A DNA stretch of 64,000 bases from Gracilibacillus suaedae (GTDB lineage: Bacteria; Bacillota; Bacilli; Bacillales; Amphibacillaceae): assembly GCF_017599345.1 (NCBI RefSeq), contig NZ_JAGFVL010000023.1:1-64000 (forward strand). The letters run 5' to 3'. The stretch's first letter is position 1; the number at the start of each line of letters is the position of its first letter. Position numbers and translations under genes: made by a program. A model generated the notes under the pieces. That model did no database searches, was not told the DNA's origin, and was given only the letters and a program-made list of their open reading frames with translations. Shown here piece by piece: positions 2,863-63,798 of this stretch.

Positions 2863-3845
2863 TTAATCGATTATCACTAGATTATAAACAACTTCCATTA
2901 GTAGCAACAATTACCCTGTTTGTTCTCATGTTTAGTTTTGGTTCTTTGCGTTATACAGGATTTTTATCTACGCAGGTTTTTCTCAATCTATTTATTGATA
3001 ATGCATTTCTTATTGTAATAGCCGTCGGCATGACTTTCGTTATTTTATCTGGTGGGATTGACCTGTCTGTTGGATCAGTGATAGCTCTGACAAGTATGGT
3101 TGCAGCAAGCTTAACCATGGAGGCGCAACTGTCACCATGGATTGTGATACCCATAAGCTTGTTAGTTGGTACCGTTTTAGGTGTTATGCAAGGTGCTTTG
3201 ATTCATTTTTATAATTTGCAACCATTCATTGTAACATTAGCCGGAATGTTTCTAGCACGCGGACTTAGCTATGTCATTAGTGTCGAAACGATTTCCATTG
3301 ATCATCCTTTTTTTAGCTATATGGCAAACTCACGAATCCCTTTACCGGGAGATAATTTTATTTCGATTAGTGTAGTAATCGCTTTAACTGTTGTGGTCAT
3401 TGCTATATTTCTTGCTCATTTCACCAATTTTGGCAGAACTGTGTACGCAATTGGTGGTAGTGAACAATCGGCAATGTTGATGGGCTTACCAGTTGCCAGG
3501 ACGAAAATATTAATTTATACATTAAGTGGTTTCTGTGCTTCTTTAGCAGGTCTAATCTTTACCTTCTATATGCTTTCAGGTTACGGCTTGCATGCAAATG
3601 GTATGGAATTAGACACCATTGCAGCTGTTGTTATTGGTGGCACACTTTTAACAGGAGGTGCTGGATATGTAGCTGGCAGTGTTGTCGGCGTGCTAATTCT
3701 AGGAGTTATTCAAACGATTATTGTTTTTGAAGGAACACTTAGCTCATGGTGGACCAAAATCGCAATCGGAGTATTGTTGTTGTTATTTATCGTATTACAA
3801 CGTGTCATTGTAATGAGAAGTGAGAAAAAGCAAGGTAATGGTTGA
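2859..3845 (+). CDS. yjfF: Sugar ABC transporter permease, YjfF-like (328 aa)
   Basis: Second permease of the same importer. Characteristic blocks are GMTFVILSGGIDLSVGSVIA, a central ITLAGMF-type segment (here VTLAGMFLARGLSYV) and GTLSSWWTKIAIG near the C-terminus, all as in YjfF. Two different permeases beside one double ATPase is the layout of the YtfQ-YtfR-YtfT-YjfF importer. The periplasmic-type binding protein (YtfQ) is not downstream and would have to lie before position 1 or elsewhere. The gene ends 28 bases before the giant GH43 gene. Confidence 0.88.
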   Translation: MINRLSLDYKQLPLVATITLFVLMFSFGSLRYTGFLSTQVFLNLFIDNAFLIVIAVGMTFVILSGGIDLSVGSVIALTSMVAASLTMEAQLSPWIVIPISLLVGTVLGVMQGALIHFYNLQPFIVTLAGMFLARGLSYVISVETISIDHPFFSYMANSRIPLPGDNFISISVVIALTVVVIAIFLAHFTNFGRTVYAIGGSEQSAMLMGLPVARTKILIYTLSGFCASLAGLIFTFYMLSGYGLHANGMELDTIAAVVIGGTLLTGGAGYVAGSVVGVLILGVIQTIIVFEGTLSSWWTKIAIGVLLLLFIVLQRVIVMRSEKKQGNG

Positions 3846-3873
3846 AAAATGTGATAAGGGAGTTTGAAACTGG

Positions 3874-6800
3874 ATGAAAAATAATCGAAACCTTTCTCTT
3901 TTTATAATTTCGTTATTATTGTTTCAGGTAGTAGCAGGAAGTATTCCCATCACAGTAATTGCAGAAGACAATAAATCAAATCAAGAAAGTAATACAATCG
4001 TTCATTATGATATGAAAGAGACAGAAGAGCTCGAAGATAAAACAGTTTTCGAAAATTTGGCAGACGAAGCTTTTGATGGTATTTATCAAAATATGGATAA
4101 AAGTCGCCTGATAGCAAATGATGAGGTCGGTTTCGTGGAATTAGATGGTGGTTCTGCAAATGATACTAACGCTTATATTGAACTTCCCAAGACTGATGAT
4201 GGAAAAGATGTTTTATCGGATTTAGAGAACGTTAGTATCACCGCATTAGTGAACTGGACAAATGATGGTACGAACCGTTGGATTTATGGATTTGGAAGAG
4301 TCGATGATGACGTTGCAAATGGAAACAGTTATCTATTCACAACACCGCTACACGGTAGTAATAATAGTGCTGCTACGGGGATATCAGAGGCAGGCTGGCA
4401 AAATGAAGCACTGGTTACCGCTAATGAAGCGATGACGGCAAATCAATGGAATGTCGTAACATCTGTTTTTAACAATGAAGAGGAAACGATGTCGTTGTAC
4501 GTGAATGGAAAAGAGGCGGCGCAGGGTTCTACTAACGGTTTACAGCTAGTTAATATCATTGATTCTAAAAGCTCTTTTTCAGGGTTTATCGGTAGATCTA
4601 TTTTTCAAAATGATGATTACTTTAAGGGGATGATTGCTGATTTCCGTATTCATGGTGCTGCATTATCAGCTACAGAAGTTGCCAACCTATCGTCTGAATT
4701 GCAAACGAAAATCAACCCTTTAAATCAACTTTTGTTAGACGATCAAAAAGGACAATTATCAATCGAATCTTACTTAGATCAGGAAGATACTGTTGATCAG
4801 GTAACTCGTGATCTAAACTTACCGACAAGAGGTCGAAACGGTGTCAAAATATCATGGGATTCGAGTTATCCCGATGTGGTTGCTAATGATGGTACTGTTC
4901 AACGTCCAGGAGTGGAGGAAGGAGATACGGTTGTTGAACTGACTGCCAACTTATCTATCAAGGAGATAACAACAACCAAAACGTTTGAGATAACCGTATT
5001 AAAAGAATTTTCAGATCAGGAAAGAGTAGGCCTTGATGCTGCTGGCATTTCTATCTATAATCCTGACAATGTCAAAGGTAATCTCTACCTACCAACAGTT
5101 GGTGAACATGGGTCTGAAATTAGTTGGAAATCCTCACATCCTACAATTATTAAAGGTTCAGATGATATAGCAGATCAACCACATCAGTTGGGGTGGGTAG
5201 ATCGTCCAGATGCAGATACCGATGTGACTTTAACGGCTAACGTCCAATATAACGATGCAACTATCACACAGGACTTTCAGGTTACCGTCAAAAAAGACCC
5301 AGGCGATAAAGAATATGATGCCTATTTCTTTAGTTATTTTACAGGAGAATATGAAGGTGGAGAAGAAATCTCGTTTGCAGTCGCAGAAGACCCATTGCAT
5401 TGGCGAGCTTTAAATAATGGTCAGTCCGTGATCCAATCGAATATGGGGGAGGAAGGATTACGTGATCCCTTTGTAATTCGAGCTCCAGAAGGTGATAAAT
5501 TTTACATGATTGCGACCGACTTAAAAATGGGTGAAAGTACTAATTTTGATCAAGCACAAATTACGGGGAGTCACTCGATTATGGTTTGGGAATCAGATGA
5601 TCTGGTCAATTGGAGTGAACAACGGATGGTAGAAGTTGCTCCAAAAAATGGAGGTAACACATGGGCACCAGAAGCCTTTTATCATAAACCGACTGGTGAA
5701 TATGTAGTATTTTGGGCATCGTCTATACCGAATGAAGAGACATATGGGGACTATCCAAATGGGCGTCCGAATGGACAATATAATGTGATGTATTATGCGA
5801 CAACAAGAGACTTCCAAACATTTTCCGAACCAAAGGTATATATTGATGATAGCTTCCCGACGATCGATACGACGTTTATTGAACACGATGAAACACTATA
5901 CCGTTTTACTAAATCTGAAGTGAATTACAAAGTCTATTATGAAAAAGCACAAACTATTTTTGATGATTTAGATGGAACAGAAGAAAATGGCTATCAATTT
6001 GAAGAAATACCCGGAACAAAGGATGGCAATCAAGGCTTAATTGGACATGGTGGGAATAATGAGGGGCAAACCATTTTTAAAGCAATTGATGAAGAAAAAT
6101 GGTATCTTTTCTTAGATTCCTGGCCGTATCACGTGCGCTGGACGACTGATTTAGAAGATGGATCTCAACTTGTAGACAATGTACTTGATCCAACGGAATA
6201 TGCTCTGCCACCTGGTCCACGCCATGGAACGGTTATACCTATTACAAGTGAAGAGTATCAAGCATTAACCGATCATTATCTTCCAGATGGTCCAGCGCCA
6301 AGTGATGATCCTGTTGTTCATTATTCCTTTGATGAGGAAGTGGATGGGGTTATTACTGATCACAGTGGAAATGGCTATGATGCAACACTTCAAGGTAATG
6401 GTTCGATAGTGACTGATCAAGCAATCGGAGATTCTCAAGGGTTTGTTCAATTAGATGGGGAATCAGGCTTTGTAGAAATGCCAGAAAATTTAATTAAACA
6501 AGAAAATTTGGAAAAAATGACACTATCGACCTGGGTAAAGGTAGACCAGAATCAAGCAGATCAACGAATTTTTGACTTTGGTTCTGATACGGGTAGAGAA
6601 GCAAACCGTAATAGTATGTATCTAAGTACACAAGGCGACTCTGGAGAATTAGAGTTTGCAATGGTAACACCTTATACAGAGAAGTTTGCAAATACATCTA
6701 CAGACTTACCATCTGATTATAAGTATCGCTTAGCTTCAAGTCGTCTGCAATTAAACCAATGGCAACATGTTGCAGTCACGATTGACGGATTTAATGCTAA

Positions 6801-9800: not shown

Positions 9801-10176
9801 CCAACATAAGTTGAAAAAACAAGTAAGTGACATTGATGTTGAAGCGGGAACAGTGACAGCCGATGTTTCTCATTTCTCAGTCTATGGGGTACTAAAGACT
9901 ATAGGTCAGCAAAACGAAACCCCGGATGATGATAATGATCAAAGTGCTCAACCGCCATCTGATAAAGATGAGGAAACATCAAATACAGATGATAATCAAA
10001 GTGGAAAGAGCGCAGACGGTACGAAACAACAACAGGAGTCAGATCAGCAAACTGACCAAAACAACAAAAACTTACCAAATACGGCAACCATGCTGTTTAA
10101 TTGGCTGCTGTTCGGTACTATATTACTTGCCATCGGTTTAGGATTGTATTTCAAGCGGAAGAGAAATGTAATGTGA
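3874..10176 (+). CDS. Giant wall-anchored double GH43 protein with LamG and Ig-like domains (2100 aa)
   Basis: Secreted surface glycosidase, probably acting on arabinose-containing polysaccharides. Order seen: signal peptide (1-30, ending near IAED), LamG (about 42-277), two atrophied Ig-like domains (284-478), GH43 five-blade propeller (482-805, putative base Asp531 in LRDPF), LamG (812-1045), LamG (1055-1270), two more atrophied Ig domains (1272-1465), a second GH43 (1466-1785, Asp1519 in LRDPF, putative acid Glu in GEGPAIFK), a Big_2 Ig domain (1789-1868), a beta-rich region to about 2010, a polar linker and LPNTA (2067-2071) with membrane span and KRKRN tail. The two halves are an internal duplication. 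The sorting signal fits a class D sortase. Exact substrate is unknown. Confidence 0.88.
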   Translation: MKNNRNLSLFIISLLLFQVVAGSIPITVIAEDNKSNQESNTIVHYDMKETEELEDKTVFENLADEAFDGIYQNMDKSRLIANDEVGFVELDGGSANDTNAYIELPKTDDGKDVLSDLENVSITALVNWTNDGTNRWIYGFGRVDDDVANGNSYLFTTPLHGSNNSAATGISEAGWQNEALVTANEAMTANQWNVVTSVFNNEEETMSLYVNGKEAAQGSTNGLQLVNIIDSKSSFSGFIGRSIFQNDDYFKGMIADFRIHGAALSATEVANLSSELQTKINPLNQLLLDDQKGQLSIESYLDQEDTVDQVTRDLNLPTRGRNGVKISWDSSYPDVVANDGTVQRPGVEEGDTVVELTANLSIKEITTTKTFEITVLKEFSDQERVGLDAAGISIYNPDNVKGNLYLPTVGEHGSEISWKSSHPTIIKGSDDIADQPHQLGWVDRPDADTDVTLTANVQYNDATITQDFQVTVKKDPGDKEYDAYFFSYFTGEYEGGEEISFAVAEDPLHWRALNNGQSVIQSNMGEEGLRDPFVIRAPEGDKFYMIATDLKMGESTNFDQAQITGSHSIMVWESDDLVNWSEQRMVEVAPKNGGNTWAPEAFYHKPTGEYVVFWASSIPNEETYGDYPNGRPNGQYNVMYYATTRDFQTFSEPKVYIDDSFPTIDTTFIEHDETLYRFTKSEVNYKVYYEKAQTIFDDLDGTEENGYQFEEIPGTKDGNQGLIGHGGNNEGQTIFKAIDEEKWYLFLDSWPYHVRWTTDLEDGSQLVDNVLDPTEYALPPGPRHGTVIPITSEEYQALTDHYLPDGPAPSDDPVVHYSFDEEVDGVITDHSGNGYDATLQGNGSIVTDQAIGDSQGFVQLDGESGFVEMPENLIKQENLEKMTLSTWVKVDQNQADQRIFDFGSDTGREANRNSMYLSTQGDSGELEFAMVTPYTEKFANTSTDLPSDYKYRLASSRLQLNQWQHVAVTIDGFNAKLFVNGKEVSSSATFNVEPRMLMETTMNYLGRSTRNNQSYFAGGFDEFKLFNRELTASEIEELADELTIEAPEEPQTEPSLLLEYDMKNIENNILQDQSGNFDGTLVNLDENNLITTDQVGVIELTGEESYIEIPEGVLDDKESITVSTLVNWNGENSAEWLYTFGQNDQRYLYFTPSYNADGSARFGVATNGWQNEISTKTDGLKENEWKLVTTVFDGDANTLELYIDGELAASSEAGDYTLADIANMEGLSGYIGRSFYHADPDFKGVLADFKVYDGVLTAADIGELKNEADEKIAAIESILVEDAKAQLIIDDLLGNNQSADEVITGLDLPAKGSNNTAISWESSHPDIISEGGQVVRPVNGAGNQIVTLTATLTDGEVSTSKEFTFTVLEEDAAVIRLKEAIQSLIVHNIHDVRGNLTLPTEVGENIEVTWESTDPEMITTTGEVTRPEPGEGDSEVILIATLELDGEKLRKAFKAKVKELPEEQDYEGYVFPYFTGEGYENGEQIYFALSEGNNPLKWQQLNDEKPVFTSELGEEGLRDPFIIRSPEGDKFYMIATDLKIYGNGDWNRAQTEGSRSIMVWESNDLVNWSEQRMVEVAPKEAGNTWAPEIYYDDTTGEYIVFWASKLYEDEKNRNNGDSYQRMMYSKTRDFYTFTEPEVYMDYGYSIIDTTMMEHDGKIYRFTKDERGNHPEDSPNGKFIFQEVGDSVLDPNFEMIKEGVGKEQISRGEGPAIFKSNSEEKWYLFIDEFGGRGYVPFETTDLDSGEWTIPEEYDLPDRPRHGTVLPITADEYQALSQQVPQEEKGEEDEVTSISLEENDINLQVNETKQLAVNVTPDQSVDLLWTSTNEEVAEVDSNGEVKAVSSGEAYITVSTADGLHADIARVVVTEQDAEKPSNQLEIEQQKEVNPGETYYLEGTKVKIKMPGDLPEGTLLMIKEVDEEALLSDQSLEIAGDVLDFKIVYPEGTEEPKSPFGLTLGIDEKYREAETAIYFYNNSQHKLKKQVSDIDVEAGTVTADVSHFSVYGVLKTIGQQNETPDDDNDQSAQPPSDKDEETSNTDDNQSGKSADGTKQQQESDQQTDQNNKNLPNTATMLFNWLLFGTILLAIGLGLYFKRKRNVM

Positions 10177-10324: not shown

Positions 10325-12511
10325 ATGGTTAATAAAATCATAGGTTTATGCTTAATGCTGACGTTTATCAGCTTGGTCACAGCTACATATGTGCAAGCAG
10401 ATAATCCTATTATTAAAGATGAATTTTCGGCAGATCCGGCAGCCATTACACATGAAGGGAAAGTGTACCTTTATACCGGACATGATGAAGCAAACACTAG
10501 TGATAGTGACTATGTACTCAAAGAGTGGAGTATCTATTCTTCTGAGGATTTAAAAGATTGGAAATTAGAGGGGAGGGTGCCTCGTGATATTTTTGAGTGG
10601 GCAATAAATGATACCGCTTGGGCTTCGCAAACTATTGAGAAAGATGGCAAATTCTATTGGTACACAACTGTTGAGAATGGCGATAGTGCAGCTCCCGGAA
10701 TGGCGCTTGGGGTTGCGGTATCAGATCATCCGGTTACAGGTTGGGAAGATGCAATTGGTGCTCCATTAGTAAAGAGTACTGATACCGAAAACCCTGATAA
10801 TATGGGGGCTTGGTCTTGGGATGATATTGATCCAACTGTATTTATTGATGATGACGGTCAAGCCTATCTATATTGGGGGAATACCCACGTATATTATGCT
10901 AAATTAAAAGATAATATGATTGAATTGGAAGATGATATCCATCGTTTTGACATTGAAAATATGCCGGGGACTTTTACAGAAGCACCATGGCTTCATAAAC
11001 AAAACGGTATTTACTATCTACTTTTTGCGATGAATTTCCCTGAAGAATTGGCATATGCGACAAGTGATAGTCCAGAAGGTCCATGGGAATACGGTGGTAA
11101 ATTGATGGATGCATTACCGTATACAGGGACTAGTCATCCTGCTGTATTAGAATTGGAAGGGGAAACCTACATGATCTATCATAATGCAGCATTACCAACA
11201 GGTGGAGATTATAGAAGGTCAGTTGCGATTGACAAATTACACTTTACACCTGAAGGGAAAATAAGAAAAGTAATCCCTACTGCTTCTGGTATTACACATG
11301 ACAGTTATGCGATAGAATTATATGATGAATCTCGCTATGTTCGTCATTTAAATAATAGTTTAAGAGTCGATCCACTCGAAGGGGATACGTATGAATTTAA
11401 ATGGCATATCGTTGATGGATTAGCCAGTGATGATGAAGGTTTCCTTTCTTTTCAATCTGAAAATAATCCAGGTTTTTATCTGGTCAGGGATGGTTCTTCT
11501 CTAAGCTTAGCAAAACATGATGGTACAGCTAGCTTTGAAGAAGGAGCCACTTTCAAGGAAGTTCCAGGATTGGCAGATGACTCTTGGAGTTCCTATAAAA
11601 CATTTCATGATTCTTTGTATCTTTCAAAGGCAAGTGATAACACGTTACAGCTAGTAGCGAAAAATAGTTTAGAGAATGAGGGAAATGCCACGTTTCGGTT
11701 AAGCAATGCAGATGCAAAAGAAGTAAGCGTTTCTGAGGATGCGCTAGTTATGTTAGAGAACTCTACTGCAACCGTTTCTGCAACCGTTTGGCCAGAAGAG
11801 ACATTAAGAAAAGAACTAGAGGTATTTGTGGAAGATGAAGATATTATTGACGTAACAACCGATTATCCAAATCAAACAGATGAAACGAAGCTAACGATTA
11901 AAGGAAAACAAGAAGGTATGACAACCATTACATTATCGACGTTAGATGGCAATCATCAGACGACAATAGATGTAGAAGTTAAGTCGATCGATACTACTCC
12001 TGCTTCACTAGAGGATATCCTTGTCTCTGCCAGTTCTGAAACAAAAAACGTTCAGATAACTGGAACACTTGGAGAGACAGCAGGTAAAAACGTAACATTA
12101 AAAGTAGAAAATCCAAATGGTGAAGTGGATTATCTGGATCAAGTTGCATCCAATGATGCCGGAGAATTTAGCTTTAACTTTAGGTTGCAAAGTAAGCTAA
12201 CTGGAGATTATCACGTATTTTTAGGAGCTAATGGAAATGATCCCTATGAAACTACCTTTACGATAAAAAAACAAGATTCAGCAGATAAAGATAAGCAAAA
12301 AGATAAGGACAATGATCATAACGAATCTTCATCATCTAGTGATCAGGAATCTGATCCAGGACAAAAAAATGATAGCGAAAAGCAAGGGAATCAAGACTTA
12401 CCAGATACAGCAACCAATCTATTTAATTGGATGTTGATTGGTGGGCTCCTTATCATAATAGGACTTATTGCCATATTTGTTGTCAGAAAAAGAAAGGAGG
12501 AAGCGAGATGA
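10325..12511 (+). CDS. Wall-anchored GH43 arabinofuranosidase-like enzyme with AbfB domain (728 aa)
   Basis: Secreted GH43 enzyme. Signal peptide about 1-25. The GH43 domain (28-325) carries putative base Asp37 in SADPA, a pKa-modulating Asp in DDIDPTVFIDDDG and acid Glu in FTEAPW. An arabinose-binding AbfB-type (CBM42) domain follows at about 328-462, then two Ig-like segments (465-550 and 555-645), an acidic/polar linker and LPDTA (692-696) with membrane span and RKRK tail. The AbfB domain is the best evidence in the locus for arabinofuranose as target. The start has AAGGGGAG upstream. The stop overlaps the next gene by 4 bases (ATGA), so the two are co-translated. Confidence 0.87.
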   Translation: MVNKIIGLCLMLTFISLVTATYVQADNPIIKDEFSADPAAITHEGKVYLYTGHDEANTSDSDYVLKEWSIYSSEDLKDWKLEGRVPRDIFEWAINDTAWASQTIEKDGKFYWYTTVENGDSAAPGMALGVAVSDHPVTGWEDAIGAPLVKSTDTENPDNMGAWSWDDIDPTVFIDDDGQAYLYWGNTHVYYAKLKDNMIELEDDIHRFDIENMPGTFTEAPWLHKQNGIYYLLFAMNFPEELAYATSDSPEGPWEYGGKLMDALPYTGTSHPAVLELEGETYMIYHNAALPTGGDYRRSVAIDKLHFTPEGKIRKVIPTASGITHDSYAIELYDESRYVRHLNNSLRVDPLEGDTYEFKWHIVDGLASDDEGFLSFQSENNPGFYLVRDGSSLSLAKHDGTASFEEGATFKEVPGLADDSWSSYKTFHDSLYLSKASDNTLQLVAKNSLENEGNATFRLSNADAKEVSVSEDALVMLENSTATVSATVWPEETLRKELEVFVEDEDIIDVTTDYPNQTDETKLTIKGKQEGMTTITLSTLDGNHQTTIDVEVKSIDTTPASLEDILVSASSETKNVQITGTLGETAGKNVTLKVENPNGEVDYLDQVASNDAGEFSFNFRLQSKLTGDYHVFLGANGNDPYETTFTIKKQDSADKDKQKDKDNDHNESSSSSDQESDPGQKNDSEKQGNQDLPDTATNLFNWMLIGGLLIIIGLIAIFVVRKRKEEAR

Positions 12512-30427: not shown

Positions 30428-31009
30428 TTAATAAATTGGTTTTGCATAGATAATATATCTTTCAGGTGCGTTTCCTACATAGGAAAATGGATAGCAAGTC
30501 GTGATAACCAATTCTTCTTCAGGCGCTGTTGATTTAATAATGGTTGTATCGTCTGCATCAACAATCTTGGAATCAACCATTTCATATTCAAATTCTCCGT
30601 ATTCCAATTCTATTGTAAAGGTATCTCCGACCTCTACTTCTCCTAGTTCGCGAAATACAGTATCACGATGGCCCGACAGCACAATTTGATCGTTTTGTTG
30701 TGGATAGGCTGAACCGCGATAATGGCCGACTCCTTTGTCTAATTCATCTGGGTCAGTACCTTCGACGATAGGCAATTGAGCATCAAGTGTTGGAATATGC
30801 AAAAAACCAACTGCTTCTCCCATATCTGGAAAAAAGTCCTCCGGTGCTCGTTTTGTTGACTCACCTGTTTCTTTAGAAGATTGCTCAAGTAATTCGTTTA
30901 CTTCAGTGACAGCCTGTTTTTCAGCAGCTTGTATTTGGAAGTAACGATAACCGCCAATACTTAGAAGCACGATTCCTGCCAATATAAAAAGTAGTGCTAA
31001 CTTCTTCAT
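30428..31009 (-). CDS. Class D sortase (193 aa)
   Basis: Membrane-bound cysteine transpeptidase that joins LPxTA-type proteins to peptidoglycan. One N-terminal membrane span (about 5-25) precedes the extracellular sortase barrel. Catalytic His114 (LSGHRDT), Cys172 (TTCYPF) and Arg184 (APERYI) are all present. Size and the short N-terminal anchor fit class D (B. subtilis YhcS, B. anthracis SrtC), whose known signals include LPNTA and LPDTA. Exactly such signals occur in three proteins of this window. The ATG at 31009 is preferred over a GTG four codons upstream; AGAGG precedes both. Divergent from sinR. Confidence 0.9.
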   Translation of the reverse strand: MKKLALLFILAGIVLLSIGGYRYFQIQAAEKQAVTEVNELLEQSSKETGESTKRAPEDFFPDMGEAVGFLHIPTLDAQLPIVEGTDPDELDKGVGHYRGSAYPQQNDQIVLSGHRDTVFRELGEVEVGDTFTIELEYGEFEYEMVDSKIVDADDTTIIKSTAPEEELVITTCYPFSYVGNAPERYIIYAKPIY

Positions 31010-31045
31010 AGTATTCCACACCTCTTTAGTCTATGTATTATCCAT

Positions 31046-57175: not shown

Positions 57176-57353
57176 ATGGGGACTTCAATAGTTGTTGCGA
57201 AATAAATCAAATTTCGACAAAATTCTCAAAAATATCTTTACCCGTCGCTATTTATAGCTTACATTAAATATAGAAATGCTTTATCTTTCTACATATTTTA
57301 GACTGTTGAGAGGTAAAGCTTTCTTTTTTAGTAGTGATAAGGGAGAGGGGCAG

Positions 57354-58064
57354 ATGAAGCAAGAAGACATCGAGCATATCATCAATGAGATACAGGCAGG
57401 CAATGAATTACAAAGAGAACAGTTGATTCAATATTACCAGCCATATATATTGAGTGTGGTTGGAAAAGTATGTAACAAATTTAAAACGTGGAATGATGAC
57501 GAGGCGAGCATTGCCTTAATTGCCTTTAATCGTGCCATTGACACCTATGATCCTCAAAAAGGTAGAACATTTTTAAACTATGTCTATTTAATCATTCATC
57601 GGGAATTGATTGATTTTTTTAGAAAAGAAAATCATTATCAAAGTCTTATGAAAAAAGGGGATAAGCTTTTAGAAGCAAACCATGTAAAAAAGTCGGTAAA
57701 ACAGTATCATCAAGAACAACGAATTAGCAATATGGCTGCTGAAATTATTGATTTAAATGATCAATTGTCGCAATTTTACATACGTTTTGAAGAATTAGAA
57801 GCACATAGTCCAAAACAGAAGCGAACAAGAAAGAAAGTACTGGATATTGCAGAAGAATTTATTCAAAGAGAGACACTTGTCGAACAATTATTTAGCCGAA
57901 AGCAATTTCCGGTGAAGGAATTTTTAACGGTAGCCAATTACCGTGTCAAAACAATCGAAAAGTATCGAAAGTATATTATCGCCATTATTATTATTTTATT
58001 ACATCCTGAATGGGAAAATTTACATGCTTTTTTGCGTAATAAGGTAAGGGGGGAGAAAAAGTGA
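57354..58064 (+). CDS. sigI: RNA polymerase sigma factor SigI (236 aa)
   Basis: Alternative sigma factor of the SigI family. The region-2-like block ALIAFNRAIDTYDPQKGRTF and FLNYVYLIIHRELIDFFRKE are conserved, with a C-terminal domain FLTVANYRVKTIEKYRKYI in place of a classical region 4. ATG 57354 follows GGGAGAGGGG. It overlaps rsgI by 4 bases. SigI responds to heat in B. subtilis and, in clostridia, to polysaccharides through RsgI sensors. Confidence 0.93.
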   Translation: MKQEDIEHIINEIQAGNELQREQLIQYYQPYILSVVGKVCNKFKTWNDDEASIALIAFNRAIDTYDPQKGRTFLNYVYLIIHRELIDFFRKENHYQSLMKKGDKLLEANHVKKSVKQYHQEQRISNMAAEIIDLNDQLSQFYIRFEELEAHSPKQKRTRKKVLDIAEEFIQRETLVEQLFSRKQFPVKEFLTVANYRVKTIEKYRKYIIAIIIILLHPEWENLHAFLRNKVRGEKK

Positions 58065-59305
58065 AGCAAAAAATCAAAGGCGTAGTCATGGAGGTTCAAG
58101 AACACCAGATTGTTCTAATGTGTGATGATGGTACATTTTGTAATGTTCCTCATGATCAACATGACATTCCAGCTATTGGTGAGTATGTTACATATCGAGT
58201 AAAGAAATCCCCTTTACTGTTAGGAAATAGAAAGCAAGTATTACCATTAGTAGCTCTAGCTGCAATATTACTGTTTGCGATTATGAGTGTTTCTCTTTTT
58301 CAACCGCAACAACCAGCTTATCTGCTTGCTGTGGATATTAATCCAAGTATGGAAATATCACTGGACGAAGATTTACATGTGATAGATATAACTGGATTAA
58401 ATGAAGACGCAAACCTTGTCATGAAAGGATTGGACGTGAAAGGTAAAGATATCGAAAAGGTGATTAATGAGATCGTTGTTCGACTAAAAAATGATAAATA
58501 TTTATCCGCTGATACGCCTGCCATCATTACTGCGACGTGGATTGAGTTACAGGACCATTCCATATCAAATGATTCACGTTCAGTAGAAGAAATATTCAAT
58601 CATTCTCTTGGGGAGAATCATGTTGAAGCAGAAATGGAAGTTTATGTTGAAAATGAACATTATTATAAGAAGGCAAAAGAGGTTGACCTGTCCGTCAATT
58701 CTTATCGAATGTACCAAGAAATGAGTAACGGCGAAGAGGAAGTTGATATCAAAGATGTTCAAAATAAGTCGTTAAAAGAACTTCGGCAAATCGCTGAAAA
58801 AGAAGCTGAAAAGGCTAGTGAAAGCAAAAACTCAGAACGCGCTAAGTCATCACCTTCCCCAGATAAAGAGGAAGCATCCAAAAATAAAAAAGAGGAAACC
58901 GAAAACTCATCGTCAAAGCACAATTCTAGTATAAGTGTTCCAAAAAAAGGGCAGACAAAACAGCCTAAAAAAGAGAAGAACGGTGAAGGAAACAAGCAAA
59001 ATGACGAGCAAGCTCCATCTAAGGAAGAAAAGCATAATAGTGATAAAGAACGTAATAATGAAAAATCTGCACCTAAAAAATCGAATCCACCATCAAATGA
59101 TCAAAATAAGGAAAAGAAAATGGAGAAGCCTCCATCAAATGAAAAACCTGAAAAAAAGCCCGATAATCAAGAGCAAAGTGATCCTAAACCACCAATGAAT
59201 GCTGAGGAAAAAGCAGCAGATAAAGGCAAACAAGAAGAAAAATCAACTGAGAAAGTCCCTAAAGATCAAGGTAAAGGGAATGATAGTAACAAGAGGGAAG
59301 ATTAA
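58061..59305 (+). CDS. rsgI: Anti-sigma-I factor RsgI (414 aa)
   Basis: Membrane anti-sigma factor for SigI. Cytoplasmic anti-sigma domain about 1-50, one membrane span about 59-80, then an extracellular domain starting AYLLAVDINPSMEISL (NPS at 94-96, the region where RsgI proteins are reported to self-cleave between Asn and Pro). The last 150 residues are a Lys/Glu/Pro/Ser-rich disordered tail without any carbohydrate-binding domain. Start is GTG within the sigI stop, after a strong GGGGGG-AG site. Confidence 0.92.
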   Translation: MKQKIKGVVMEVQEHQIVLMCDDGTFCNVPHDQHDIPAIGEYVTYRVKKSPLLLGNRKQVLPLVALAAILLFAIMSVSLFQPQQPAYLLAVDINPSMEISLDEDLHVIDITGLNEDANLVMKGLDVKGKDIEKVINEIVVRLKNDKYLSADTPAIITATWIELQDHSISNDSRSVEEIFNHSLGENHVEAEMEVYVENEHYYKKAKEVDLSVNSYRMYQEMSNGEEEVDIKDVQNKSLKELRQIAEKEAEKASESKNSERAKSSPSPDKEEASKNKKEETENSSSKHNSSISVPKKGQTKQPKKEKNGEGNKQNDEQAPSKEEKHNSDKERNNEKSAPKKSNPPSNDQNKEKKMEKPPSNEKPEKKPDNQEQSDPKPPMNAEEKAADKGKQEEKSTEKVPKDQGKGNDSNKRED

Positions 59306-59389: not shown

Positions 59390-59410
59390 AGTCGTTGTAT
59401 AAGTATTTCT

Positions 59411-59549
59411 GTTCCATGGATAAGTTTCATTGTTCCGGGGATAAAGGCATATATCCCCGGAACAAAACGGGATATCCAAGGAAGAGCGAGAGATATCCCC
59501 GGAACAAAACGAAATATCCAGGGAAGAGAACCAGCTATCCACGGAAGAG
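59411..59549. repeat. 21-bp-period repeat, inverted array (2 + 5 units)
   Basis: Two forward units (GTTCC..GGATAA at 59411 and 59432) face five reverse units starting at 59451, 59472, 59493, 59514 and 59535 (ATATCCNNGGAA). All within-orientation spacings are exactly 21 bases. The unit is the same as at 39236. The array lies between convergent rsgI and the EAL gene. Because 21 is divisible by 3, long reading frames with heptad repeats appear on the minus strand; I treat these as artefacts. Confidence 0.78.
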
Positions 59550-59569
59550 TGGTAATTGATTCATTCTGT

Positions 59570-60343
59570 TTACTTCGCTGCAAAGCCGTTATCTTTAGAA
59601 TCATCCATTTCATATTTTCTGATTACTTCTAATGGTTCTGGGCGAGCTAATAAAAACCCCTGAACAGTAGAGACGCCAATTGCTTTTGCCATCTCTAAAT
59701 CTTCCATAATTTCAATGCCTTCCAGCACAAATTTGGTATCCGTGTTTAAACAATAAGTTACAATCGACTTTACCATTTCCTGTTTTCGACTTGACTTTGC
59801 TAGATGCTTGGCAAAATATCGATCCATTTTAACAAAATCGGGTTGCAATTCAACAATTGCCTGAAGGGAGGAAACTCCTTTCCCGACATCGTCTATGGCA
59901 ATCAAATAGCCTTCTGCCTGTAACTCATTCACTGTCTTGCTAAAATAATCAACGCTTTCAATGATTTCGGATTCGTTAATTTCAATCATAATTTGATTCG
60001 CGGTCAGTGTTGTTTCTTCTAATACTTTATTCAATTGACCTAAAAAATCAGGATCAGCTAGGTTAGAAGGAAAAACATTGATCAGAACTTTTTTATTGTT
60101 ATATGTACACTGATTAATCTTATCATATGAATGAAGCGCTTTTTTTATCGAGCGCATTTCTAACTCAAAAAATCTATTGGTATGGCTTGCTTTTTCGAAG
60201 AGAATTTCGGGATTCGTAAATAAATCAGTCCTCAATAATGCTTCATATCCAATAGGAGTTAAAGTATGCAAGTCATAGAGCGCTTGGAAATGGTGCTCAA
60301 ATTTCTCGTTAACAATTAAATCATTGATTTTTGCAATAGACAT
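59570..60343 (-). CDS. EAL-domain c-di-GMP phosphodiesterase (257 aa)
   Basis: Single-domain cytoplasmic EAL protein that should hydrolyse c-di-GMP to pGpG. The substrate and metal motifs are present: YEALLR, INVFPSNL, IEINESE, AIDDVGKGVSSL, VKMDR, EGIE and VQGFLLARP, so activity is expected. No sensor domain or membrane span. ATG 60343 is chosen, 7 bases after GGGGAGGA; the longer frame contains that site. It lies 190 bases downstream of the biofilm operon on the same strand and separated from it by a terminator. Confidence 0.9.
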   Translation of the reverse strand: MSIAKINDLIVNEKFEHHFQALYDLHTLTPIGYEALLRTDLFTNPEILFEKASHTNRFFELEMRSIKKALHSYDKINQCTYNNKKVLINVFPSNLADPDFLGQLNKVLEETTLTANQIMIEINESEIIESVDYFSKTVNELQAEGYLIAIDDVGKGVSSLQAIVELQPDFVKMDRYFAKHLAKSSRKQEMVKSIVTYCLNTDTKFVLEGIEIMEDLEMAKAIGVSTVQGFLLARPEPLEVIRKYEMDDSKDNGFAAK

Positions 60344-60509
60344 CCGTCCATCCTCCCCGAACACACCAAATGATGTCATTACTGTTGATCATAAAGTCTA
60401 ATATACACACCTGTTACAATGTACCTATCATTTTACAACAATATCTATTTATTTTCTATACTATTTTCAGATTTCTTTGGCTAACTATCTCACACTTTCT
60501 TAACACGCC

Positions 60510-60539
60510 AAAAAAAGAATAGGTGATAGAACCTATTCT
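60510..60539 (-). terminator. Terminator at end of biofilm operon
   Basis: AGAATAGGT (60516-60524) pairs with ACCTATTCT (60531-60539), and on the minus strand a run of seven T follows. The stem includes the stop codon of the anchored TasA-like gene. Confidence 0.85.
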
Positions 60540-61168
60540 CCAGCAAATTTATTCCTTTTATGAGAGAGTAAGATAAGTGATCCTACCAATAATAGAGCTC
60601 CACCAATTAATAGGATGTTAAACATAACCGTAGCAGTGCTTGGAAGTGATGAGCCACTTGTTGGTTGACTATCAGTAGCGATCGGAAAGCTAGATGTTTC
60701 GCTCTCGGTGTCATCGAAAGCTGTCACAATAATTTCTGCGGTCGTCGTTAATCCCTGATATTCATTTCCTGATTCAGGTGGAAAGGTCAGAGTAAAATCT
60801 AGCTTTTCTTCGCTATTAGTTTGTAAAGGCAAATCAGCTAGTAATGAAAAATTGGCTAATTTATTATCAAATAAAACATGATCACCCTGTATGATTTCCA
60901 ATGACAATTGATTATAGAGCATCTCTGACCCATCTATATAACGAACATCAATATCATAGGTAATGTCGTGATCTGTTTGATTACTGATTGTGATTTCACG
61001 TTCAGCCCAATCACCGGGTTTAAGATTATCCAGATTAAACAAATTACCATTTTCACTGAATGTACCATCTAGATCGATAATATTAGTATTATTAGTTGCC
61101 TGTAGAATCGGAACGAATAATAGGAAAAACAGGAGGATAGCACTGAAAATTATTTTCGATTTGCCCAA
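60533..61168 (-). CDS. TasA/CalY-like protein with LPSTA wall-anchor signal (211 aa)
   Basis: Secreted protein with a signal peptide (about 1-25) and a TasA-like beta domain (about 30-150). The block NLDNLKPGDWAEREITISNQ aligns with NLKPGDWMNRSFELINDGS in TasA of the same operon. A Ser/Thr linker leads to LPSTA (175-179), a membrane span and the HKRNK tail, so it should be joined to peptidoglycan by the class D sortase at 30428. Start is TTG. A 200-base gap separates it from sipW. Probable wall anchor or nucleator for TasA fibres (inference). Confidence 0.82.
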   Translation of the reverse strand: MGKSKIIFSAILLFFLLFVPILQATNNTNIIDLDGTFSENGNLFNLDNLKPGDWAEREITISNQTDHDITYDIDVRYIDGSEMLYNQLSLEIIQGDHVLFDNKLANFSLLADLPLQTNSEEKLDFTLTFPPESGNEYQGLTTTAEIIVTAFDDTESETSSFPIATDSQPTSGSSLPSTATVMFNILLIGGALLLVGSLILLSHKRNKFAGE

Positions 61169-61371: not shown

Positions 61372-61968
61372 TTACTTCTGCTCAATTGTTTCCTTGACTT
61401 TGGTCTCTGCAGATTGTTTGACTTCTAATCGAGATATCACTTGCCAGATAGTAAATGCTGCGTAACCTAGTAGTAAAATGCCAGGTACGATTAATAAAAG
61501 TGCACTGCCCGCTTGTGAATGAGCAAAATTGACGACATATCCCACATAAGGGATGGTAAACCCTTTATATTCGGCTACAACATTATCAGACAGAACTGGG
61601 CTTGAATCAGGTGCGTTATTGTTATCGCCTTTTGTTTCATACATGATATTCTCACCGCTTTGAGTGACATCGACAACACGGTGGGTGATCAAATTTTCGT
61701 CCTCGTTTATAAAGGTAATGACATCCCCTTCATTAAACCTTGTCATATCACCACCTGGTTTTACGGCAATGATCGATCCAGTTTGAATGTCGGGTTCCAT
61801 TGATCCTGATAGCACGGCTTTAAGCTGGTATCCCATAATTTCCGGTTCGCCACCTGAGGCTTTTGATGAGATCGTGATAAACACGGTAAATACTAATGTT
61901 ATAAAAAGTACAGTGGTAATAAGTAAGCTAACCAAACGTCTAATTTTTTTCCATATGTTTATTTTCAT
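61372..61968 (-). CDS. sipW: Signal peptidase I, SipW type (198 aa)
   Basis: ER-type signal peptidase dedicated to TasA and TapA. An N-terminal membrane span (about 12-33), catalytic Ser in VLSGSMEP and His in ITHRVVDV (Ser-His type instead of Ser-Lys), YETKGDNNNAPD, and a second span near 155-180. Its ATG overlaps the tapA stop (ATGA), so it is coupled to tapA. Confidence 0.95.
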   Translation of the reverse strand: MKINIWKKIRRLVSLLITTVLFITLVFTVFITISSKASGGEPEIMGYQLKAVLSGSMEPDIQTGSIIAVKPGGDMTRFNEGDVITFINEDENLITHRVVDVTQSGENIMYETKGDNNNAPDSSPVLSDNVVAEYKGFTIPYVGYVVNFAHSQAGSALLLIVPGILLLGYAAFTIWQVISRLEVKQSAETKVKETIEQK

Positions 61969-62867
61969 TCTTGTTCACCTTCTTTTTCAGTTTGAGAATT
62001 TTCTTGTTCTTCTGCATCAACAGTTTTTTCTTTTTCTATTTTTTTAGTTTTCATTTGCTTAGGTTTGTCAGTTGATCCCTTATCAGGCTCACTTAAAATT
62101 GCTTGTTTATCTTCTTGCTCAGGTTTCGTTGTTTCCTTTTCATTATCCGATGGTTTCTCCAACTTATCTGATTTATCTTCTGCTTCTTTGGTTGATTGCT
62201 CTTTATTCTGTTCATCACTATTTTTTTCTGGCGCCTCTTTGGTTTCTTCTGATTCTTCTAAATCCTCTTCATTTGATTCATTATCTAGATCTTCCTCCTC
62301 TAATGAATTTACCTTATCAGCTTGTTTTTCTTTCTCTTTCTGTTTATCTTTCTCCGGACATTTCACTTTTATCTTTTCGCTCCAAATAGCTTTCTCTGAT
62401 TCCCCTTCATAATCAGGGCGCTGATAGGCTTTTACTACATAAAACCCCTCTTTTTCGGCTTGATAAGATATCGTGGTAACTTCCCCAGCTTGCATAGCGT
62501 CTAATGTACCTTCTGATATTTTTTTACCATTTTTTGGATTGCTGTTCTCGGTATAAAAGATTTCATAGTTGGTTGGGCCGATCATGCTGTAACCATTGTT
62601 TTTAATTTCTGCTGAAAATCCTACCGGAGGACAAGCACCATTTAGATTTTGATTTCCTTTTCCAACAAAAAGCAACTCACTTCCGTCCCACCACGACCCA
62701 GTCGGTATCGAAATATTTACTGCATTCGAATGATTAAAAAAAGCACTAGTATTGGAGGTCAGTTGAGATATAGAGAATAAAGCGGCATATAAAATAAATA
62801 ATATTTGCACCACTTTGCTTACCTTTTTATATTTCTTTCGATATTTCATGATTCGTGTACTTCTCAT
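61965..62867 (-). CDS. tapA: TasA fibre assembly/anchoring protein TapA (300 aa)
   Basis: Minor fibre component needed for TasA assembly. The N-terminus (about 1-45) is a long signal/hydrophobic region (VVQILFILYAALFSISQL) followed by TSAFFNH. The TapA domain (about 50-170) contains GSWWDGSELLFVGKGNQNL and two Cys near 78 and 170. The remaining 130 residues are a highly charged Glu/Lys repeat tail, longer than in B. subtilis. ATG 62867 has GGAGGA 6 bases upstream. Confidence 0.9.
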   Translation of the reverse strand: MRSTRIMKYRKKYKKVSKVVQILFILYAALFSISQLTSNTSAFFNHSNAVNISIPTGSWWDGSELLFVGKGNQNLNGACPPVGFSAEIKNNGYSMIGPTNYEIFYTENSNPKNGKKISEGTLDAMQAGEVTTISYQAEKEGFYVVKAYQRPDYEGESEKAIWSEKIKVKCPEKDKQKEKEKQADKVNSLEEEDLDNESNEEDLEESEETKEAPEKNSDEQNKEQSTKEAEDKSDKLEKPSDNEKETTKPEQEDKQAILSEPDKGSTDKPKQMKTKKIEKEKTVDAEEQENSQTEKEGEQE

Positions 62868-62941
62868 AGCCATTCCTCCATCTTGGAAAAGATTTATTTA
62901 CTTTCGTAAACATACAAACTGGCTATACATTTACGGTAATA

Positions 62942-62980
62942 AATAAAAGGTTGGAAAGATGAGGGGAATCTCATCTTTCC
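62942..62980 (-). terminator. Intercistronic stem-loop between tasA and tapA
   Basis: A perfect 11-bp stem GGAAAGATGAG (62953-62963) with CTCATCTTTCC (62970-62980); on the minus strand it is followed by AACCTTTTATTT. It lies 7 bases after the tasA stop and probably ends most transcripts, giving TasA in excess over TapA and SipW. Confidence 0.75.
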
Positions 62981-62987
62981 AGAAAAA

Positions 62988-63599
62988 TTATCTAGCTTCG
63001 CCTGCTTCTTGGTTAGCTGTGAATGTCCATTCAAGTTCTAATGAGTCACCTTGGAATTCGTTTTGGTCCTCGCCATTATCAACAAACTCGAATTGAACGT
63101 AAAGGGTGTCACTATCCCCAGCTTCTAATCCACCTCTTTCTTCAATCCATGGTACAAAGACATTATTTGCTACTGTGTCAGGAGACATATCTTTTAGTTC
63201 GGAAAGAGTCGTAAAGAATACGATCTGATCAGGAGATACAGGGCCTAAAGTAGTTTTATCAGCATTCCAGAAGAAATTAACACGAATGTGATCACCGAAA
63301 TCCTCTACATTGTTGCCATTTGCATCAGTTACTGTATAATCCGTGTCAAGAAGCACCTCTGAAATATCTAATGAACCATCATTAATAAGCTCAAAAGAAC
63401 GGTTCATCCAATCACCTGGCTTTAGATTGTCTACATCGATAATAGTAGTAGGATCAACTGATAAATCTAATGTACCTGCTGCGAATGTATTGTTCGTAAC
63501 TTCAGTATCATTGAAATACGCATATGTACCTCCTCCCACTAACGCAAGACCAAGTGCCGCTGACGCCACGCCCATACCTAATTTCTTTTTTAAAGACAT
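62988..63599 (-). CDS. tasA: Biofilm matrix fibre protein TasA (203 aa)
   Basis: Major amyloid-like fibre subunit, TasA/camelysin family. The N-terminus KKKLGMGVASAALGLALVGG followed by GTYAYFNDTEVTNNTFAAGT is the SipW-processed signal and mature start. The domain continues to about 195 with NLKPGDWMNRSFELINDG and FFWNADKTTLG. ATG 63599 follows AAAGGAGGA; a longer frame exists upstream but lacks a ribosome site. In B. subtilis tasA is last in its operon; here it is first and followed by a stem-loop. Confidence 0.94.
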   Translation of the reverse strand: MSLKKKLGMGVASAALGLALVGGGTYAYFNDTEVTNNTFAAGTLDLSVDPTTIIDVDNLKPGDWMNRSFELINDGSLDISEVLLDTDYTVTDANGNNVEDFGDHIRVNFFWNADKTTLGPVSPDQIVFFTTLSELKDMSPDTVANNVFVPWIEERGGLEAGDSDTLYVQFEFVDNGEDQNEFQGDSLELEWTFTANQEAGEAR

Positions 63600-63622
63600 A
63601 AATGATTCCTCCTTTGTTTTTT

Positions 63623-63638
63623 GTTCTTTATTAAGAAC
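63623..63638. promoter_or_regulatory. Candidate SinR operator at tasA
   Basis: The 16-bp palindrome GTTCTTTATTAAGAAC has the same half-site spacing as the SinR site described in B. subtilis (GTTCTC, 4 bases, GAGAAC), and its left arm GTTCTTT is an exact match to the GTTCTYT heptamer. It sits 10 bases downstream of the probable tasA -10 and 24 bases before the start codon, well placed for repression. Confidence 0.7.
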
Positions 63639-63647
63639 TACAAGTGC

Positions 63648-63676
63648 ATTGTACATCGAGATATACTTTTTTAAAA
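63648..63676 (-). promoter_or_regulatory. Probable tasA promoter
   Basis: TACAAT reads on the minus strand at 63648-63653, with only a weak TTTTAA at the -35 position (63671-63676). The start of transcription would fall in or next to the SinR palindrome. Confidence 0.45.
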
Positions 63677-63774
63677 GTCCGAAAAAAGGGTAAAACGGGC
63701 CTTTATGATCGTTATAAAGAACTAATGCTTTAAAATGCTTTGAATTTCAACAAGTTTTAAAGTATTTTATTAAT

Positions 63775-63798
63775 AGCTGTTCTTCAGAAAGAACAGCT
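63775..63798. other. Palindromic hairpin upstream of tasA
   Basis: AGCTGTTCTT (63775-63784) and AAGAACAGCT (63789-63798) form a 10-bp stem with a 4-base loop. It contains GTTCTT/AAGAAC arms and could be a second SinR-type site or a structural hairpin; there is no T run. Confidence 0.4.

Follow-up and report, generated by a model that had tools for sequence, protein, structure and literature searches.

A gene of Gracilibacillus suaedae, lying on the minus strand at 60533..61168 of the first 64,000 nucleotides of contig NZ_JAGFVL010000023.1 (assembly GCF_017599345.1; this whole stretch is called the window hereafter), encodes a protein with a TasA-type domain and a sortase sorting signal, and is here called ancX. 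It is almost certain that this sortase-anchored paralogue of TasA forms part of the tas system, which in Bacillus subtilis makes the TasA fibre. Its role within that system can be stated with less confidence: judged from its sequence and those of its relatives, AncX may be distantly paralogous to TasA and form the end of the TasA fibre at the cell wall, a reading for which we see the scales as about level.

AncX has 211 residues arranged as signal peptide, TasA-type domain, short linker and sorting signal. Its gene starts with a TTG codon preceded by a Shine-Dalgarno-like AAAGGCGGGTG, and it is the fourth of a minus-strand series after tasA (62988..63656; PF12389, 305 bits, the sole PF12389 match in this genome), tapA (61965..62873; TIGR04087, 160 bits against a cut-off of 80) and sipW (61372..61968; NF046067, 294.5 bits against a cut-off of 190), the last encoding a dedicated signal peptidase. 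The predicted Sec signal peptide of AncX (61097..61168, minus strand) takes residues 1-24, with a helix at 3-23 in the predicted model and a cleavage site that is an estimate. The beta-sandwich domain follows at residues 28-155 (60704..61087, minus strand) and includes NLKPGDW at residues 48-54, whose KPGD motif (61010..61021, minus strand), invariant in A2, holds the counterpart of TasA P62 according to an alignment with PDB 8AUR. The sorting signal (60554..60646, minus strand) consists of LPSTA at residues 175-179, then a membrane span and then a basic tail. A preliminary description of the window, made from the letters and their open reading frames, had placed NLKPGDW, LPSTA, a membrane span and a basic tail in the last gene of the tas series, and all of these were confirmed. 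Since no NCBIfam family except models of the sorting signal matched the protein above its cut-off, the name AncX was coined. The closest named orthologue, that of G. lacisalsi, shares 90% identity.

The likeness to TasA extends past the short NLKPGDW module. AncX and TasA were aligned by hhalign over 123 columns with probability 99.0 and E 4.4e-18, which bears out the paralogy proposed earlier, and AncX has a beta-sandwich domain homologous to the TasA/camelysin family (PF12389). AncX of the window scores 17.5 bits against PF12389, below the Pfam gathering cut-off of 22.5, and several orthologues exceed it, e.g., those of genomes G043 (26.2 bits) and G039 (24.6 bits). A fold unrelated to TasA had been named as the outcome that would speak against the idea, and both hhalign and the predicted model, which aligns to the TasA fibre, gave the opposite; the model does so only from TasA residue 43 onward. 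AncX does not carry the SipW-type signal, as TIGR04088, which matches TasA, is absent among its NCBIfam matches, nor is TIGR04087 (TapA) found among those matches up to E 1.

The tail scores 40.7 bits against NF058670 sorting_LPXTATN (cut-off 32) and 24.1 against Gram_pos_anchor (cut-off 20). The same window encodes a class D sortase of the LPxTATN-specific type (30428..31021, minus strand; NF058671, 240.5 bits against a cut-off of 140), and it is likely to be the enzyme for AncX, since the only other sortase match in the genome is of class B. The LPxTATN signal appears to be in regular use in this organism, because 24 of them are found above cut-off in its genome. The sortase tail seen in the preliminary description is thus supported by two models and a matching enzyme, and we infer that AncX would be linked covalently to peptidoglycan. 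Two more LPxTATN signals lie in the window on the plus strand, at 10072-10164 and 12398-12493, in open frames of 2102 and 744 amino acids.

How widely is AncX kept together with the tas genes? Among 61 relatives, AncX was found in 23 (E <1e-20) and TapA in 26, all of the 23 being within the 26; a looser count (E 0.001) gives AncX in 39 and takes in matches covering little beyond the sorting tail. Among 199 genomes of the order, AncX is present in 65 (E 1e-12), TapA in 51 (E 1e-8) and both in 43, within 8 kb in 40, a co-occurrence with a Fisher p of 2.6e-19 when phylogeny is ignored. Among the 65 is at least one genome, G053 (L073), whose match resembles a TasA-like protein without a tail, and two further loci, L174 and L178, score low in the in-house model. 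In a scan of named genomes, from which the best 80 of 180 relatives were kept for locus counts, 77 of the 80 loci have a tas gene upstream of ancX in the same orientation, at a distance of up to 264 bp in 74 of these 77, and the nearest one, with the window included, is sipW in 64 cases, tasA in 13 and tapA in one. Gene order varies between tasA-tapA-sipW-ancX and tapA-sipW-tasA-ancX, and ancX comes last in both. Thus, the membership of AncX in the tas cluster was upheld, and the survey for LPxTA-tailed paralogues, which had been proposed as a check, shows wide conservation. One might still suppose that AncX is an unrelated wall protein placed next to the tas operon by chance, as the 203-bp gap between sipW and ancX in the window, against a median upstream gap of 33.5 bp over 78 loci, could suggest. 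This is contradicted by the upstream tas gene at so many loci of many genera, by locus L067, in which two complete tas sets stand in tandem with an AncX of their own in each, and by the homology of AncX to TasA, so that such a coincidence is scarcely credible.

Some loci deserve mention for their own sake. In L095 and L110, a second tas-like set adjoins the first (AncX-SipW in L095; TapA-SipW-TasA-TasA in L110). Long versions of AncX are encoded in L069 (7350-10274, 974 aa) and L144 (from 6971, 492 aa), and in that of L069 a series of repeated modules separates the TasA-type domain from an LPQTG tail, as a spacer across the wall would. Locus L149, titled Roseburia sp. 1XD42-34, has a Bacillaceae-type tas operon with AncX, and its assembly is probably mislabelled or contaminated.

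TapA occurs without AncX in 8 of the 199 genomes. Three of them (L155, L159, L160) have tapA-sipW-tasA and are B. subtilis-like by the lengths of TapA and TasA, another, G037, has the same order, in three more (L156-L158) the stretch read shows a TapA-like gene standing alone, and the eighth is G054. No AncX and no sortase were found in 12 kb at the three B. subtilis-like loci, a named B. subtilis genome not having been searched, and no sortase lies within 12 kb at the five AncX-less tas loci read (L070 and L071 besides these three). In L072 (G054), a TapA-like protein (3716-5523) carries a long DPVDP-type repeat stalk and an LPNTAS sorting signal of its own, and a class D-type sortase follows 20 bp after its gene, while the 10 kb read contain no match to TasA, SipW or AncX; this is apparently a second, separate way of tying a tas-type domain to the wall.

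Sortase genes at the loci of relatives were sought with a model grown from the class D sortase of the window. Of the 80 named loci, 34 have a class D-type sortase gene, which is divergent and upstream of ancX in 20, on the same strand directly downstream in 12 and convergent downstream in 2, with L130, where ancX and the sortase gene overlap by 4 bp, assigned by hand. As each genome carries between one and a few sortases of this type, we estimate that fewer than one locus of this kind in 80 is to be expected by chance. The sorting motif and the type of sortase also correspond. In 9 of 11 AncX ending in LPxTGE, a same-strand sortase gene lies -4 to +255 bp after the gene, the loci of the other two (L102 and L134) showing none. 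In a tree of 38 sortases, whose bootstrap had not settled, the 11 LPxTGE-linked ones (those 9 with L059 and L069) are set apart from the rest by a branch supported at 100/100, and 3 LPxTS-linked ones, all from Sporosarcina, split off at 100/99. This shows that the sorting tail and the sortase travel together, even if by a single co-inherited change.

If AncX is a TasA paralogue fixed to the wall, which part of the subunit interface does it keep? In the structural report on the TasA fibre, the sheet of a subunit is completed by residues 28-38 of the one before it, with F29 as a key contact (PMC9674648), and P62, F29, F200 and Q232 are described as a conserved 'proline box' between subunits (PMC10151520). 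TapA is reported as the supplier of the first donor strand, unlikely to be in the filament beyond initiation (PMC9674648, PMC10151520). Mapping via the 8AUR alignment equates P62 with the proline of KPGD and Q232 with the residue 14 positions past the glutamine of NxxQG. On the acceptor side, the PGD proline is kept in 80 of 80 parsed AncX, a phenylalanine stands at the place of F200 in 69 of 81, and NxxQG, which leads into the acceptor strand, is kept as well. The counterpart of Q232 is present in 1 of 80 AncX versus 79 of 85 TasA. On the donor side, a motif count found the TasA-type start of the donor strand in 0 of 81 AncX versus 82 of 87 TasA, and most of the AncX inspected have a polar N-terminal stretch ahead of their first core strand. 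TapA has a TasA-like start in 4 of 67 by a strict pattern and in 32 of 67 by a loose one. With the acceptor-side features kept and the donor-strand start absent, AncX looks like half an interface, which would receive and could not give. From these patterns we infer that it would be an acceptor-only terminal subunit, capturing the exposed donor strand of a TasA molecule and so tying the fibre to peptidoglycan.

The preliminary description had proposed that TasA fibres are either nucleated from the sortase-linked protein or tethered to it. In the former case, AncX at the wall would donate a strand to the first TasA in place of TapA. AncX without TapA does exist: 22 of the 65 AncX genomes lack a TIGR04087 match, although 5 of the 20 regions read from them yield a weak TapA with the in-house model (one of the 20, L177, is the same contig as the named locus L144). 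Both sipW and tasA stand beside AncX in 13 of these 20 regions, and 9 of the 13 have no TapA by the in-house model either, with a sortase in the stretch in 6 of the 9, so that sipW-tasA-ancX units do occur. It is to be noted, however, that the majority of the 80 named tas loci have TapA as well and that the stretch of AncX from which a strand would be donated is mostly polar. Since donor-strand complementation needs a donor strand, nucleation from AncX finds no support in a family without a single TasA-type start and with a model that aligns only beyond the donor strand of TasA, and we hold it to be quite unlikely. Tethering is plausible and, on these sequence patterns, the more likely of the two roles.

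The computed base for a tethering mechanism is a protein with a signal peptide, a TasA beta-sandwich and a class D sorting signal, coded with tasA, tapA and sipW across many genera and often beside its own class D-type sortase. AncX would be matured by an ordinary signal peptidase rather than by SipW, and the class D sortase would cut LPxT^A and join it to a peptidoglycan precursor. Its domain would then provide an acceptor groove with the conserved KPGD proline and no donor strand. A fibre begun by the donor strand of TapA and extended by TasA would end in an exposed TasA donor strand, and if this is caught by AncX, the fibre would be tied covalently to the wall via one terminal AncX, on the same cell or on a neighbour. 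As AncX donates nothing onward, growth would stop at this end. TapA would be donor-only, TasA donor and acceptor, and AncX acceptor-only with an anchor, and the polarity of the fibre would be set thereby.

Several observations weigh against AncX as the wall-bound end piece. The model of AncX in the window has a further strand, 156-164, after a four-residue turn from strand 142-151; this hairpin would lie at the place of the TasA donor strand, so the groove may be closed by the linker of the protein itself and would need opening. A script looking for such a strand in other AncX yielded no clear rule. The linker between the domain and LPxT has a median of 23 residues, which means that the domain may sit inside the wall, and without Q232 the groove may have lost its ability to bind a donor strand. 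These three features would suit AncX being a closed, self-complemented TasA-like domain, a checkpoint or chaperone in the wall which holds TasA monomers in transit and leaves the fibre. The covalent anchor and the spacer-extended versions of 974 aa (L069) and 492 aa (L144) suit a fixed docking point better, and such a transit role is improbable. The direction of the fibre is another difficulty for tethering. By one report, TapA is located mainly at the cell wall and is required for anchoring (PMC4551309), and small tip subunits are placed near the cell surface in the structural report (PMC9674648). A fibre that TapA starts at the wall would have its free donor end facing outward, which would leave AncX to act on fibres that have been released, on cells in the neighbourhood or together with subunits inserted at the base. 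Further, at L130, L146, L147 and L161-L163 the stretch read shows AncX next to a class D-type sortase but no tas genes, and the match between motif and sortase may be one co-inherited event, since a single fork of the AncX domain tree holds 10 of the 13 AncX with LPxTGE and the LPxTS sortases are all from Sporosarcina. In this strain, co-transcription of sipW and ancX is not to be assumed across the 203-bp gap.

A terminator-like hairpin of 12 pairs was found by one hairpin scan directly 3' of tasA (62952..62981, minus strand). It was left unscored by a stricter in-house script, which did score related loci: by this script a hairpin follows tasA in 27 of 60 and 9 of 13 gaps in the two gene orders, against 2 of 65 sipW-ancX gaps and 0 of 72 tapA-sipW gaps. 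This distribution would fit a major subunit with rarer end pieces; the comparison is weak, because roughly one in two sipW-ancX gaps, like the overlapping tapA-sipW pairs, is not long enough to be scored.

AncX might also be a receptor or adhesin, anchored in the wall, whose TasA fold binds some other ligand, such as peptidoglycan, polysaccharide or the side of TasA fibres, and which does not form the fibre end. Its linkage to tasA and sipW in several gene orders argues against this, as does the fact that its conserved motifs include those forming the interface between TasA protomers, and we consider a receptor of this kind rather doubtful.

Around the tas cluster, other features of the window were noted. 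An EAL-domain protein is encoded directly 3' of ancX on the same strand (59570-60379, minus), a possible link of cyclic di-GMP to matrix genes. Upstream of tasA, at 63774-63797, lies a perfect inverted repeat, AGCTGTTCTTTCTGAAGAACAGCT, which resembles a SinR operator but may be a terminator. Clustered CCGGGGATAT-like repeat units in both orientations were seen by eye between two genes at 59410-59560. At 57276-59305 on the plus strand, a sigma factor is encoded and after it an anti-sigma factor of the RsgI type, whose tail is long and charged (Pfam Sigma70_r2, RsgI_N, RsgI_M).

How does AncX compare with systems already known? With the TasA/TapA/SipW fibre of B. subtilis, which is held by donor-strand exchange (PDB 8AUR, 5OF1/5OF2), it has in common the gene cluster, the fold family and the KPGD and NxxQG motifs, but AncX differs in having a sortase tail and neither a SipW-type signal nor a donor strand. 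TapA is likewise a minor fibre accessory, termed an anchor in the literature and located mostly at the wall (PMC4551309); by the structural account, however, it has a complete Ig fold and acts as a donor through its N-terminus (PMC10151520). AncX would be the opposite half of the interface with a covalent tail. In Bacillus cereus, CapP-CalY-TasA also combines TasA-family filaments with a wall-associated accessory protein, but its authors call it sortase-independent, CapP being held at the wall by a disordered C-domain (PMC13082335). The BsaA fibres of Clostridium perfringens are a TasA-like polymer that depends on SipW, and a sortase gene precedes sipW there, yet that report describes no effect of srtB deletion and no LPXTG-like motif in BsaA (PMC7395162). 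An earlier synteny study of tapA operons distinguished two classes by the presence of tapA (PMC6334530). As for class D sortase substrates, LPNTA of Bacillus anthracis (SrtC) and LPDTS of B. subtilis YhcR (PMC12445088) resemble AncX in signal and sortase; substrates of this sortase type were predicted to be mainly enzymes (PMC3617157). Unlike these, AncX is a paralogue of a fibre subunit, and many copies have a linked sortase. The LPXTA proteins of B. cellulosilyticus have a sorting signal and a sortase of the same kind as AncX. In sortase-assembled pili, a terminal basal pilin is fixed to the wall by sortase, and the basal pilin EbpB (9LR7) is among the Foldseek matches. The shaft of such pili is covalent, whereas TasA fibres are held by donor strands and only their base would be covalent. 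Searches of an open-access library of papers brought up no sortase-tailed TasA paralogue.

Attachment of the TasA fibre is unsettled even in B. subtilis, where TapA is credited with it and yet the structural reports see in TapA a donor of the initiating strand. If AncX is a covalent, acceptor-only end piece, it would answer the question of attachment for many genera, make fibre polarity testable and join the fields of sortases and donor-strand fibres, and class D sortases, whose substrates were predicted mostly to be enzymes, would gain a structural role in biofilms. If B. subtilis indeed has no AncX, this would explain why work on its operon missed the protein. It might be, though the balance tips slightly to the other side, that a large part of Bacillales uses a three-part set, in which TapA only gives, TasA gives and receives, and AncX only receives and is joined to the wall by a class D sortase, encoded next to it in many lineages, so that a single interface logic would serve initiation, polarity, termination and covalent anchoring, whether to the same cell or to a neighbour, and B. 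subtilis would be a lineage without the anchor.
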